Assembly: GCA_945873755.1 (NCBI GenBank)
Contig: CAMCEM010000005.1
Location: forward strand, 1 to 53,487
DNA length: 53,487 nt
Direction: 5' to 3'
Origin: Chitinophaga pinensis
GTDB taxonomy: Bacteria; Bacteroidota; Bacteroidia; UKL13-3
Shown here: in pieces, positions 7,508 to 12,256 of the stretch
How the letters are laid out: each line of letters opens with the position of its first letter
Numbering within the stretch: the first letter of the stretch is position 1
The notes under the pieces: model-generated
What the model saw: only the letters and a program-made list of their open reading frames with translations
The model's database searches: none
What the model was told of the DNA's origin: nothing
Position numbers and translations under genes: made by a program

Positions 7508-7759
7508 TCAATTGAGTTTTAATTTATATTTTAAAATTAATTTGCGAACTTGTTCTACTTGATAATTTTTAGCTTTATTTCCTTTTGCCTGCAAATTAAT
7601 AATTTCATCAATACCATTCATATAGAAAATATGGTGACTGCCTTTTATTCGCATTTCAAATCCTAAAGATTTTAACAAATTAACGAGCGTTTCAAAAGGA
7701 ATATTACCATCTGAAGTTCCATTTAAAATTTTCTGAAAAATACTATCTCGTTTACTCAT
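7508..7759 (-). CDS. hicA: HicA-family mRNA interferase toxin
   Basis: HicA toxins are small dsRBD-fold ribonucleases that cut mRNA when not held by HicB. The 83-residue protein shows the family layout LVNLLKSLGFEMRIKGSHHI, with the catalytic histidine in GSHHIF (H42/H43), and ends with a basic helix. It lies immediately upstream of hicB. A TATTTTTG -7 box (7768-7775) is close to the start, so the pair has its own promoter. The N-terminal 20 residues are slightly longer than in the shortest HicA proteins. Confidence 0.85.
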   Translation of the reverse strand: MSKRDSIFQKILNGTSDGNIPFETLVNLLKSLGFEMRIKGSHHIFYMNGIDEIINLQAKGNKAKNYQVEQVRKLILKYKLKLN

Positions 7760-8826: not shown

Positions 8827-8933
8827 GCCACAGATTTCACAGATTACACTGATAGATTTTGTATTTATTTTTGTTACAAATTACTTATTTTATAACACAG
8901 ATTTTTTTTATTTTTTTCTGTGTAATCTGTGGC
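8827..8933. repeat. 107-bp MITE-like element with GCCACAGATT ends
   Basis: The left end GCCACAGATTTCACAG (8827-8842) and the right end CTGTGTAATCTGTGGC (8918-8933) are inverted copies; the reverse complement of the right end is GCCACAGATTACACAG. The interior is AT-rich and has no ORF. The right end abuts the sufS stop codon, whose TAG (minus strand, 8933-8935) includes the last C of the element. The same ends bound the GxxExxY unit at 10191-10836. Confidence 0.65.
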
Positions 8934-10204
8934 TATCTTTTTATTAATTTCTTAACTGCTTCCAAAAATACATCTACTTCTTCCAAAGTATTGTAAACCG
9001 AAAACGAAGCACGAATGGTCCCATCTACACCTAAATAGCTCATTAATGGTTGTGTGCAATGATGACCCGTTCTCACTGCAATTCCTTTTGCATCTAACAT
9101 CATGCCTGCATCAAAATGGTGCATGCCGTTAATTACAAATGACTGAACTGAAACCTTTTGTTTTGCTGTTCCGATAAGGTTTATGGGTTGCTGCTGTGGA
9201 GACGTTGCATGCAACGTCTTTACCGATTGGTTGATAGCCAATAATCCATCAACACAATGTTTTAGTAATTCGTTTTCGTGCGTTGCAATATTTTCTTTGC
9301 CAATTTCATTGATAAAATCTAAAGCATATTTAAAAGCAATTACATCGCCAATATTGGGTGTTCCTGCTTCAAATTTATAAGGAATTTCATTGTAAGTAGT
9401 TTTTTCAAAACTCACTTCTTTTATCATTTCACCTCCACCTTGGTAAGGCGGCATGGCTTCTAACAATTCTCGTTTGCCATATAACACACCAACACCAGTT
9501 GGGCCATATAATTTATGCCCAGAAATGGTTAAAAAATCACAATCTAAATCTTGTACATCAACTTCTAAATGCGAGCATGCTTGTGCACCATCTAACAAAA
9601 CTTTAGCGCCAACAGCATGAGCTTTGGTTATAATTTCTTTTACAGGATTAATGGTTCCTAAAGCATTACTCACCCATACGCAAGCCACTATTTTGGTTTT
9701 TGATGAAAGTAATTTTTCATACTCTTCCATCAATAATTCGCCTGCTTCGTTTATTGGAATAACTTTTAAAATAGCACCTTTTTCTTCGCAAATCATTTGC
9801 CAAGGAACAATATTGCTGTGGTGTTCCATGGTAGTTATGATTACTTCATCGCCTGCTACCAAAAATTTTCTTCCCCAAGTTTGGGCAACTAAGTTGATGC
9901 TTTCTGTAACTCCTTTTGTGAAAATACATTCTTCCACTTCCTTCGCATTTATAAATGCTTGAATGGTTTTACGTGTATCCTCAAACATGTCGGTAGAACG
10001 AGCAGCTAGGGTATGTGCAGCTCTGTGAATGTTTGCATTATCGTGAGAATAATATTTAACTAATGCATCAATAACTGCTTGTGGTTTTTGTGTGGTAGCG
10101 GCATTGTCAAAATAAATCAAAGGCTTACCATTAACCTCTTGATGAAGTATTGGAAACTGATTTCTTATTGATGTTATATCTAATTTTTGAGCCACAGATT
10201 TCAC
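8933..10204 (-). CDS. sufS: Cysteine desulfurase SufS
   Basis: SufS is a PLP enzyme that removes sulfur from L-cysteine and hands it to SufE for Fe-S assembly. At 423 residues it is slightly longer than usual. The PLP lysine is K231 in ISGHKLYGP, and the persulfide cysteine is C383 in VRTGHHCTQP. FDNAATTQKP and TMEHHSN are further family motifs. The start is a GTG at 10202-10204 lying inside a GCCACAGATTTCACAG repeat, which encodes MKSVA; no in-frame ATG lies close by. An 18-20 bp perfect palindrome (9200-9219) is translated in frame as KTLHATS (about residues 329-335), where typical SufS proteins appear shorter. The stop codon also touches a repeat. Confidence 0.94.
   Translation of the reverse strand: MKSVAQKLDITSIRNQFPILHQEVNGKPLIYFDNAATTQKPQAVIDALVKYYSHDNANIHRAAHTLAARSTDMFEDTRKTIQAFINAKEVEECIFTKGVTESINLVAQTWGRKFLVAGDEVIITTMEHHSNIVPWQMICEEKGAILKVIPINEAGELLMEEYEKLLSSKTKIVACVWVSNALGTINPVKEIITKAHAVGAKVLLDGAQACSHLEVDVQDLDCDFLTISGHKLYGPTGVGVLYGKRELLEAMPPYQGGGEMIKEVSFEKTTYNEIPYKFEAGTPNIGDVIAFKYALDFINEIGKENIATHENELLKHCVDGLLAINQSVKTLHATSPQQQPINLIGTAKQKVSVQSFVINGMHHFDAGMMLDAKGIAVRTGHHCTQPLMSYLGVDGTIRASFSVYNTLEEVDVFLEAVKKLIKR
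9200..9219. repeat. In-frame palindromic repeat inside sufS
   Basis: AGACGTTGCATGCAACGTCT is a perfect 20-bp palindrome within the sufS coding sequence. It is read in frame on the minus strand as part of VKTLHATSP. Flanking bases (GTGG on the left, TTACC on the right) give a weak extension. It resembles coding palindromic insertions such as the Rickettsia palindromic elements, though no homology to them is claimed. Confidence 0.7.
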
Positions 10205-10230
10205 AGATTTAAATGATTTTTTATTTTACT

Positions 10231-10394
10231 AACCGCAAAGTTCGCAAAGGTTTTTCGCAAAGTTCGCAAAGGTTTACTTCGTGTTCTGGTTTGTTTTATT
10301 TTTTTAACCGCAAAGTTCGCAAAGGTTTTTCGCAAAGTTCTTAAAGGTTTTCTTCGTGCTCTTTGCGTATTCTCTTCGTGTTCTTTGCGGTTAA
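10231..10394. repeat. CGCAAAG/TTCGCAAAGG repeat block
   Basis: Two 45-nt copies (10231-10275 and 10306-10350, two differences) start AACCGCAAAGTTCGCAAAGG, followed by TTTTTCGCAAAGTT. A reversed CTTTGCGGTTA ends the block (10384-10394) and can pair with TAACCGCAAAG at 10305-10315. It lies between sufS and the GxxExxY gene, within the inverted-repeat unit. Confidence 0.75.
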
Positions 10395-10407
10395 TCTTCT
10401 TAACTAT

Positions 10408-10806
10408 TTAGTTTTCGATTTTATTAGCAACTCTTTTAAGTCCATTTTTTAAAAGTGTTACGTTAAAGTTTATCAAAAGGCCTAGTCTAAAGTCACCTAT
10501 TTTTAAATAAGTTAGTGTTTGAGCCAAATCAACATCGTTCAAGGCTTCTTTTGACTTTATTTCTAGTACCAATTTTTTTTCTACAAGTAAATCTATTCTA
10601 TAACCAATTTCTAATTTAACCTCATTATAAATTAATGGCATTGGCTTTTCTTTTTCAACAAATAAACCTTCTTTCACTAATTCAAAATACAAACATTCCT
10701 TGTAGGCAGATTCTAACAAACCAGGCCCTAATGCTTTATGAACCTTGATTGCACAACCAATTACTTTATTAGTTATTTCTTCTATATTTAAATTACCTTC
10801 AATCAT
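10408..10806 (-). CDS. GxxExxY protein (PD-(D/E)XK nuclease-like, PDDEXK_3)
   Basis: This 132-residue protein carries the name-giving motif G29-LL-E32-SA-Y35. Its later segment RIDLLVEKKLVLEIKSKE has the nuclease-like pattern D72...E82-x-K84. The family is known as a small, often multi-copy protein of unknown function; nuclease activity is inferred from the fold. It interrupts the suf operon between sufD and sufS and is flanked by inverted GCCACAGATT repeats. Its ATG sits directly against three tandem AATCTGTG copies (10808-10836), so the repeat forms its whole 5' leader. It is unrelated to Fe-S assembly by any visible feature and is probably a passenger. Confidence 0.9.
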   Translation of the reverse strand: MIEGNLNIEEITNKVIGCAIKVHKALGPGLLESAYKECLYFELVKEGLFVEKEKPMPLIYNEVKLEIGYRIDLLVEKKLVLEIKSKEALNDVDLAQTLTYLKIGDFRLGLLINFNVTLLKNGLKRVANKIEN

Positions 10807-10838
10807 GTAATCTGTGTAATCTGTGCAATCTGTGGCTA
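10807..10838. repeat. Tandem AATCTGTG repeat before the GxxExxY gene
   Basis: Three near-identical 9-mers (AATCTGTGT, AATCTGTGC, AATCTGTGG) lie between the ATG of the GxxExxY gene and the stop codon of sufD, ending 4 bases before the latter. This forms the right inverted end of the 646-bp unit. Confidence 0.75.
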
Positions 10839-10841
10839 ATC

Positions 10842-12128
10842 TTATATCTTTTTCTCTATTTCTTGTTCTAGCAATTCGACCAATTCAGGAATTTTAATTC
10901 TTTCAGCTATATCATCGGCAAATGCGTTTAGCAGCATTTTTCTTGCTACATCTGCCGGAATTCCTCTGCTTCTTAAGTAAAACATAGGTTCTTCGTCTAG
11001 TTGACCAATAGTTGCGCCATGTGTACATTTAACATCATCAGCAAAAATTTCTAATTGGGGTTTGGTATTTACCGTTGCCTCATTGCTTAATAATATATTT
11101 TTGTTACGTTGATATGCATTGGTTTTTTGTGCATCTAAATGAACCATAATTTTTCCATTAAATACCGCCACCGATTTATCCATCATAATGCCTTTGTATA
11201 ATTCATCACTAAAGCAATTTGGGAAAGCATGGTCAACACGTGTGTGGTTATCAACTAACTCTGTTCCATGTGGCATATACAAACCATACAATAAACTATT
11301 GCAGTTTTGTCCGTTCATAAAAAAATGTAAGTTGTTACGCACCAAAGTACCACTTAATGTTAAGGTTACGTGGTTAATATTGGTATTTGCTTCTTGAAAA
11401 ATTTGGGTAAAATTATTGTGGTAACTTTCACCTTCTTGGTTTTGAATTTTATAATGTTCAATATGCGCATTTTCATTAGCATAAACTTCATTAACCGCAT
11501 TGGTAAATGAGGGGTTATTACCAACGGCATAAAAAGTTTCAACCAAAGTTAGCGAAGCACTTTTTTCTACAATAATTAAATTGCGGGGTTGGCACAATAC
11601 ATTTACATCGGTTGAATCGGCAATATTGATTATGATAACAGGATTGGTTAATGTTTTATTATTGGGTACAAATATAAAAGCACCATCACTTAACAAAGCA
11701 GTATTCATGGCATTTAAACCTTGTCCTTCAATGGGAGCATATTTGCCAAAATGTTTGTTAAATAATTCGCTATGAGCTGTTTTGGCTTTAGCTAAAGTAG
11801 TAATAACAATGCTGCTATCAGTTTCAATTATGGTTGAAAGTTCAGTGCGGAAAGTACCATTTACAAAAACCAATTTGTTGGCTGTTAAGTCTTTTAAAAA
11901 CGCATGCGATAGCATCAATTCTGTTTCAATGGTACTTTCGCATGTTGATTGAAACGATTGATTGACAATATTTTTAAGGTTGGTGTATTTCCATTCCTCG
12001 TTTTTGGTGGTAGGAAAACCAACTTTTTCAAATTCAGCAAAAGCTTCTTCACGCTTCAAAAAGAAATCACTTTTCTCCGCTTGATTTTTGTATAAATTAA
12101 ACTCTGCTTTTATATTTTCTACTAACAT
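10842..12128 (-). CDS. sufD: Fe-S cluster assembly protein SufD
   Basis: SufD pairs with SufB to form the scaffold on which SufC-driven Fe-S assembly occurs. The C-terminal beta-helix core shows the family motifs FMNGQNCNSLLYGLYMPHG, KIMVHLDAQKTNAYQRNKN and DDVKCTHGATIGQLDEE, followed by FYLRSRGIP. I start it at the ATG at 12126-12128 (MLVENIKAEF, 428 residues). An earlier ATG at 12173 would add 15 residues (MFRISLFEFRIYREI) translated from AATTCGAA-type repeat DNA, and an AGAGAA ribosome-binding-like stretch precedes the inner ATG. The GxxExxY unit follows it. Confidence 0.93.
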   Translation of the reverse strand: MLVENIKAEFNLYKNQAEKSDFFLKREEAFAEFEKVGFPTTKNEEWKYTNLKNIVNQSFQSTCESTIETELMLSHAFLKDLTANKLVFVNGTFRTELSTIIETDSSIVITTLAKAKTAHSELFNKHFGKYAPIEGQGLNAMNTALLSDGAFIFVPNNKTLTNPVIIINIADSTDVNVLCQPRNLIIVEKSASLTLVETFYAVGNNPSFTNAVNEVYANENAHIEHYKIQNQEGESYHNNFTQIFQEANTNINHVTLTLSGTLVRNNLHFFMNGQNCNSLLYGLYMPHGTELVDNHTRVDHAFPNCFSDELYKGIMMDKSVAVFNGKIMVHLDAQKTNAYQRNKNILLSNEATVNTKPQLEIFADDVKCTHGATIGQLDEEPMFYLRSRGIPADVARKMLLNAFADDIAERIKIPELVELLEQEIEKKI

Positions 12129-12129
12129 T

Positions 12130-12256
12130 ATTTCTCTATAAATTCTAAATTCGAATAACGAAATCCGAAACATTTTAAATAAATTTTGACTTAAAATTCT
12201 TTACTCAACTTAATATTAAAAAATATTTCGTGCTTCGAATTTTAAATTTCGAATTT
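12130..12256. repeat. AATTCGAA/AATTCTAAATT repeat between sufC and sufD
   Basis: The gap contains AATTCTAAATTCGAATAACG and, nearer sufC, CTTCGAATTTTAAATTTCGA. These resemble the motifs at 8284-8350 and 6297-6352. A spurious upstream extension of sufD would be translated from this DNA. Confidence 0.45.

Follow-up and report, generated by a model that had tools for sequence, protein, structure and literature searches.

RAYT-like genes flanked by terminal inverted repeats, with the layouts termed REPtron and TIRtron, are the nearest described systems to the one reported here (PMC3733652, in the part of the paper available to us). Heptamer repeats of the TAACTGA type occur in Beggiatoaceae, Cyanobacteria and Bacteroidetes, and the paper describing them states that how they are transmitted is not evident (PMC4679880). 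Here we analyzed a 53,487-nucleotide (nt) stretch of Chitinophaga pinensis DNA (contig CAMCEM010000005.1, positions 1 to 53,487; the window), in which a gene of the GxxExxY family separates sufD from sufS and lies between inverted repeat arms. Gene and arms belong to a type of compact unit, roughly half a kilobase long, that sits between operon genes in several phyla and likely moves. We give a probability of about 0.5 to the reading that the GxxExxY gene and its inverted arrays of nonamers are one small unit, spread through recognition of the arms by its own nuclease and through host recombination.

The inverted repeat (IR) score of a locus was obtained by aligning the upstream flank to the reverse-complemented downstream flank, and thresholds of 14 and 16 were used. 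One set comprised 134 loci (141 were given, two were not located and five of the other 139 had short flanks); a second, for which other gene ends were used, comprised 183 (of 194 loci five were skipped, and 183 of the remaining 189 had flanks). A score of at least 16 was reached at 76 of the 134 GxxExxY loci, compared to 0.3% of shuffles and 5% of pairings between different loci, and at 88 of the 183, compared to none of 549 shuffles; 106 of the 183 reached 14. Two loci, L089 and L266, fell below 14 since the gene end used by the script cut into an arm (L numbers denote loci and G numbers genomes, G000 being that of the window). On long named loci, 24 of 58 GxxExxY genes scored at least 16, against four of the 155 other genes of the same loci, ten of which reached 14. 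The idea that such units hold small multi-copy genes of any kind was rejected on these 155 genes and on two further families: among DUF4160 matches (20, of which 16 were tested) one reached 14, and for SufD (30 loci) four of 28 reached 14 and one of 28 reached 16.

Autocorrelation of 376 flanks peaked at a lag of 9 (+3.0 points, compared to +0.3 for SufD and +0.5 for DUF4160). A second period of 12 was dropped, since SufD flanks also rise there. The arms are degenerate tandem nonamers, and they are general across GxxExxY loci. In the upstream arm the core was in sense orientation at 78 of 106 loci, antisense at 7 and undecided at 21. The outer unit had a median length of 562 nt (88 loci), which, with regard to the conserved partner gene of a toxin-antitoxin module, leaves space for about one gene. 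Loci scoring above 14 included records of Bacteroidetes and many Bacteroidota genera, Planctomycetota (L104), Anaerolineae of Chloroflexota (L159), Tolypothrix of Cyanobacteria (L171), Ignavibacteria (L153), Balneolaceae (L111), Gemmatirosa and a bin labelled Rhizobium (L134), with taxon labels that may err because some records are metagenome bins. Below the threshold were an Acidobacteria-titled locus (L151, 12.0), one of Chlorobiaceae (L141, 11.5) and one of Ignavibacteria (L172, 11.5). At L311, two adjacent GxxExxY genes each had, by eye, a separate arm type, and the two types stood back to back. Carriage by phages or plasmids was rejected, since tblastn at an E-value of 1e-5 gave no match among 50,697 phage records and eight among 72,556 plasmid records. 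Of the eight plasmid loci, six were read; a clear IR, equalled by 0 of 200 shuffles, was present at three, and those of Sphingomonas, Fusobacteria and Treponema were no better than shuffles (8, 10 and 39 of 200), with lone arm-like stretches visible.

The sequence-only reading had asked whether other GxxExxY copies are flanked by the inverted repeats of the window. They mostly do have flanking inverted repeats, but mostly in other letters (CACAGAG, CGCAAAG, CATAG and GGATT besides CACAGATT), and the notion that CACAGATT repeats end all GxxExxY units was discarded, as each clade tends to its own letters. Among 5315 pairs of loci from different genomes with less than 70% protein identity, arm similarity was correlated with protein identity (Spearman 0.36, against at most 0.16 in 300 permutations), equally so after GC content had been removed. 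On a tree of 67 labelled loci, from which 39 of 106 loci without a clear arm label were left out and in which 9 of 61 inner branches were strongly supported, the arm label needed 19 changes, compared to a shuffled mean of 42 (0 of 200 as low); taken alone, the CACAAAG label showed hardly any clustering (27 of 500 shuffles were as low). The five CATAG loci, from G000, G004, G005, G007 and G036, the last of another family, all fell in one clade with a support of 99, together with a single locus labelled CGCAAAG (L271). Where the name motif has GPG, AG-ending cores prevailed by 61 to 7, and with another middle residue ATT-ending cores prevailed by 14 to 4, in a comparison that was not corrected for relatedness and in which 20 of 106 loci were unclassified. 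Arm class follows the GxxExxY protein clade. Tentatively, and with slightly less than even confidence, we suggest that GxxExxY proteins are the enzymes of an unrecognized mobile class with clade-specific nonamers, in which gene and arms co-diversify and genes are exchanged like cassettes, and that four-helix-bundle genes with heptamer arms (see below) form a second class.

Presence and absence were compared at four operon junctions in ten members of the genus (G000 to G009). The sufD-sufS junction was visible in nine, G009 having no sufD match; a GxxExxY gene was present in seven and absent from G006 and G007, where by eye a REP-like (repetitive extragenic palindromic) palindrome takes its place. 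Constant presence of the gene at this place in relatives, which would have refuted the sequence-only reading, is thus false, and the proposal of a mobile unit gained support from this difference and from the repeats flanking most other copies. At nuoE-nuoF, visible in all ten, the unit was intact in G000, the site was empty in G001 and G002, and G006 had no unit; G005, G008 and G009 kept both arms around a 14-codon remnant of the gene, an internal deletion resembling a miniature inverted-repeat transposable element (MITE), and G003, G004 and G007 had a solo arm. At rplS-valS, also visible in all ten, the unit was found in G000, G004, G005 and G007, no unit in G003 and G006, and other sequences in G001/G009 and in G002/G008. 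The sufS-sufE junction (visible in eight) held a gene-less CACAGATT unit in G000, and CACAGATT arms enclosing a lipoprotein-like gene in both G002 and G005. G001, G003 and G004 had CGCAAAG units there, accompanied in G003 by the lipoprotein-like gene, and G006 and G007 had neither kind. Presence and absence at four junctions, arms left around a deleted gene, and homologous arms that hold different genes at sufD-sufS together argue for mobility. A non-mobile origin, in which slippage makes nonamer arrays at operon junctions, where GxxExxY genes persist by chance, would account for arms that are tandem and degenerate and for the many solo or gene-less arrays; it is very improbable, given inverted pairing around GxxExxY far above that of other genes of the same loci and the sharp edges of presence and absence at nuoE-nuoF.

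The window's own genome has four GxxExxY genes, all between inverted arms (scores 17 to 25) and at four distinct junctions. The arms were CACAGATT for the suf gene, CGCAGATT for a gene after an efflux-type gene, CACTGATT/CACAGATT at nuoE/nuoF and CATAG at rplS/valS (efflux, nuo, rplS and valS names by eye). A homing endonuclease gene would insert at one conserved target; the clades of the four differ, and each could have its own target, and among the genus members compared orthologous units share junctions. The CACAGATT pattern matched 53 times in this genome (28 + 25, up to 2 mismatches), compared to once for the reversed pattern. Many other matches had no gene, and on the 17 contigs mapped some arm pairs enclosed other small genes. 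At G000:C70:3246-4086 a pair of CACAGATT arms, of which the right has 2 mismatches, enclosed a DUF4160 gene and a further small open reading frame (ORF) that we read by eye as DUF2442, the two presumably being toxin-antitoxin-like cargo; a 102-amino acid (aa) ORF in the nuo operon was likewise enclosed. Upstream of nuoE in G000:C20 (L003:170-860) stands what we take by eye to be a pair of MNT nucleotidyltransferase and HEPN genes.

Inverted arms were also seen around four-helix-bundle genes (PF05635; L202-L231, the best loci of 40 relatives), 22 of 30 scoring at least 14 and 17 of 30 at least 16. These arms are tandem heptamers, with autocorrelation peaks at 7 and 14, and the genes look like a parallel second class with the same layout. 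In nine genomes spanning several families (G003, G008, G009, G017, G028, G029, G031, G034 and G037) such a gene lay no more than about 200 nt after a sufB match; units of both classes have landed in the suf operon repeatedly.

These other genes bear on the rather unlikely account that the unit is cargo moved in trans, by an HUH/RAYT transposase, a reverse transcriptase or general repeat recombination, and that the GxxExxY protein has a separate job. It draws on the CACAGATT arms around the lipoprotein-like gene of G002 and G005, the DUF4160 gene and the 102-aa ORF, on four-helix-bundle genes, not nucleases by name, in the same layout, and on the REP-like palindromes filling the sufD-sufS slot. 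A host enzyme acting in trans would, however, favour a single arm class per genome, whereas arm class follows the GxxExxY clade and clades within one genome differ in their arms; DUF4160 loci, moreover, are generally outside such units.

To our knowledge the GxxExxY family has no known role, and we know of no nuclease activity reported for it. With matches to every one of 8000 scored candidates, the family comprises at least 8000 protein clusters. The window protein exceeded the curated cut-offs of TIGR04256 (137.5 bits, cut-off 35) and PF13366 PDDEXK_3 (131.3 bits, cut-off 22), which confirmed its family, and these were its sole matches in Pfam and NCBIfam at an E-value of 0.001; neither a known transposase domain nor an HUH Y1 transposase domain was found in these profile searches. 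The PD-(D/E)XK residues named from sequence held in a 22-row alignment, D72 and K84 being invariant and E82 conserved in more than 90% of rows; E82/K84 form ExK, and Q96 and Y100 of the QxxxY motif, which we take as the mark of RecB/Cas4/lambda-exonuclease nucleases, were also invariant. The AlphaFold model had a predicted local distance difference test score (pLDDT) of 92.1 and a predicted template modelling score (pTM) of 0.85. From its residues, the protein is a predicted PD-(D/E)XK nuclease of the RecB/Cas4/lambda-exonuclease branch. Two variants of the gene were seen. At L306:1301-3934 (-), with relatives named Balneola, a GxxExxY domain and a complete RecQ helicase are joined in one protein of 878 aa, with no arms found around the fusion (score 11), and G077 and G092 have 883-codon frames at the same kind of match; at L320 (G030:C71:20217-20647), a GxxExxY gene between CACAGATT arms is split across two frames, a decaying unit.

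If the unit is spread by its own enzyme, the protein would bind the nonamers of its own arm class, the RecB/Cas4-like nuclease would cut DNA at the arms, and repair of the cut by end resection, arm annealing and template switching, in a RecQ-like resection pathway, could move or exchange the unit. Mobilization by its own nuclease, as the sequence-only reading had suggested, would fit these sequence features. The family might instead be a host-useful nuclease in repair, end processing or defence, transcribed by read-through and spread by ordinary horizontal transfer, with arms that insulate or stabilize messages as RNA hairpins, which we consider unlikely. The genes are under purifying selection (ratio of nonsynonymous to synonymous substitution rates, dN/dS, 0.03-0.12 in 16 of 22 orthologous pairs), neighbours are co-directional (upstream 159 of 181, downstream 154 of 177, against 310 of 400 baseline pairs), the gene-less unit of the window folds as a strong hairpin (RNA fold z -8.4 on the minus and -5.8 on the plus strand), and the RecQ fusion would suit such a role. 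A hairpin, however, has no need of clade-specific arm letters, and tens of repeat copies outside the GxxExxY genes in many genomes, two empty alleles and, in three genomes, an internally deleted gene between surviving arms look like the biology of an element.

The features of the window are collected in Table 1. As the sequence-only reading had it, two 19-mers at 10191-10209 (+) and 10818-10836 (-) are inverted copies with one mismatch (18 of 19 identical), and the right repeat serves as 5' leader of the gene, the upstream arm ending 2 nt ahead of its ATG. With up to 3 mismatches the 19-mer matched five times in the window, compared to an average of 0.02 and a maximum of 1 over 100 shuffles. 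The gene-less unit at the sufS/sufE junction and the CGCAAAG-class cluster had escaped the sequence-only reading. The earliest possible start of sufS in the mechanical ORF list is the GTG within the downstream arm, and its ORF ends on the first base of an arm of the gene-less unit, so that sufS is bracketed by two units.

Table 1. Features of the GxxExxY unit and its neighbours in the window
Feature	Position	Strand	Basis or remark
GxxExxY gene, 132 aa, predicted PD-(D/E)XK nuclease	10408..10806	-	TIGR04256 and PF13366 profiles, conserved residues, AlphaFold
Upstream arm, three tandem nonamers of CACAGATT class	10809..10837	-	inverted pair I2; matches 10809-10827 and 10818-10836
Downstream arm, CACAGATT class	10190..10218	+	inverted copy of 10809-10837; contains GTG at 10204
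CGCAAAG-class repeat cluster (gene-less mini-unit and extra arm), gene to downstream arm	10231..10394	.	direct repeat D1 (10219-10287/10294-10362), inverted pair I1 (10304-10337/10361-10394)
Gene-less CACAGATT unit, 107 nt, sufS/sufE junction	8827..8933	.	arms 8827-8845 (+) and 8915-8933 (-)
sufS	8933..10204	-	ORF; Aminotran_5 471.5 bits
sufD, stop codon precedes unit	10842..12173	-	ORF; SUFBD_core 279.2 bits

The unit of the window looks chimeric, as if its gene had been exchanged between arms. Its protein is one of the seven exceptions to the rule joining GPG to AG-ending cores. The 19 nearest listed relatives outside the sufD-sufS junction (64.8-72.3% identity) had arms of the CACAAAG/CGCAAAG/CGCAGAG/CACAGAG kind in 14 cases and by eye in 2 more, another IR in 1 and none over threshold in 2; none of the 19 had CACAGATT arms, which are probably not the natural arms of the window's gene. 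At the junction itself, the gene of the window (type A) is found in G000, G003, G004 and G008, and another GxxExxY gene (type B; 34% identity between L088 and the gene of the window) in G001, G002 and G005. Homology is visible between the left arms of G008 and G001, and over about 40 nt of the right boundary between G000/G004 and G001/G002/G005; G003 and G008 lack the right CACAGATT arm. G018 belongs to another genus; its sufD-sufS junction holds a type-B-like gene between arms of the CACAGATT class, and that of G017 a type-A-like gene with CACAAAG/CACGAAG-type ends. A type-A gene with its CGCAAAG mini-unit may have replaced a type-B gene between older CACAGATT arms. Elsewhere in the window, an 83-aa ORF (7508-7759, -) gave a sub-threshold HicA match (23.4 bits, cut-off 27).

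Copies of the repeats away from GxxExxY genes were counted in 40 genomes. The median number of CACAGATT copies was 24 in the 9 genomes where such arms enclosed a counted gene, 4 in 19 genomes with other types only (p 6e-4) and 2.5 in the 12 that lacked a counted gene (p 9e-5); for CACAGAG the numbers were 5 in 13 genomes, 2 in 15 with other types (p 0.074) and 0 in 12 (p 0.005), and these p-values are optimistic because ten genomes are one genus. Of the further GxxExxY matches 54 were added to the loci and short or weak ones left out, which made gene counts low in G030 (14 of 20 matches), G028 (3 of 7) and G005 (3 of 5); in the scripts one gene each was lost from G002, G010, G013 and G020, so that the group without genes includes G010 and G013, both with a match over the cut-off. 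G030, in many contigs, had 77 CACAGAG-pattern matches, many of those listed being near-identical hairpins with the reverse arm first, opposite to most gene-bearing units.

Several points weigh against spread by the unit's own nuclease, among them the optimism of these p-values. The gene-copy link for CACAGAG is weak compared to genomes with other types, and G003 has 51 CACAGATT copies though its genes are classed otherwise, partly through misclassification of the suf gene. IR scores were below 14 at 77 of 183 GxxExxY loci, the 39 loci left off the tree got no nonamer label, and some inverted repeats over threshold are not nonamer arrays (e.g. L135). No target duplication was visible at the cleanest empty site, nuoE-nuoF, a single site with diverged flanks. 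Foldseek of the window protein returned nothing at an E-value of 0.001 (best 6e-3). Co-variation of gene and arms is also expected from plain joint inheritance, and low dN/dS would equally result from a host-useful gene. The main doubt is whether the mover is the nuclease or something in trans; it is fed by the four-helix-bundle class and by the other small genes in CACAGATT arms, whose mover may not be the nuclease.

If the reading of a self-spread unit is true, a family of this size would gain a concrete role and intergenic repeats of the CACAGAG, CGCAAAG and CACAGATT type a candidate source, and odd small genes at junctions of suf, nuo and, on one Sphingomonas plasmid, fab would be explained. 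If the nuclease reads its own nonamer, the natural nuclease-arm pairs would be a ready table for a recognition code.

No published account of a nonamer-armed GxxExxY unit was found in a limited literature search, with most subscription papers outside it, and mentions of GxxExxY in the parts of the literature seen are in passing. We judge the unit to be new because enzyme class and arm architecture both fit no mobile element that we know or found. Like REPtrons, it combines one small gene and flanking repeats with dispersed gene-less copies, and its repeats differ by enzyme relative; unlike them, it encodes a predicted PD-(D/E)XK enzyme rather than an HUH Y1 one, and its repeats are inverted arrays of tandem nonamers rather than palindromes of 20-40 bp with a GTAG tag. 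The TAACTGA heptamers (PMC4679880) are likewise short tandem repeats in intergenic DNA, but, in the available part of that paper, without a link to a flanked gene, and the GxxExxY repeats are nonamers; the heptamers of the present analysis flank four-helix-bundle genes. With insertion sequences and MITEs the unit shares inverted ends around one gene, internal-deletion derivatives, and presence and absence at orthologous sites; it differs from insertion sequences in a protein that matches PF13366/TIGR04256 only, in the lack of a visible target duplication at the one site noted above, and in end sequences that differ between paralogous units of one genome. The D/ExK/QxxxY residues are those of RecB/Cas4/lambda-exonuclease nucleases, the predicted fold may be theirs as well, and the RecQ fusion recalls helicase-nuclease pairs; unlike these nucleases, the GxxExxY protein of 132 aa is stand-alone, multi-copy and encoded between inverted arms in the majority of cases.
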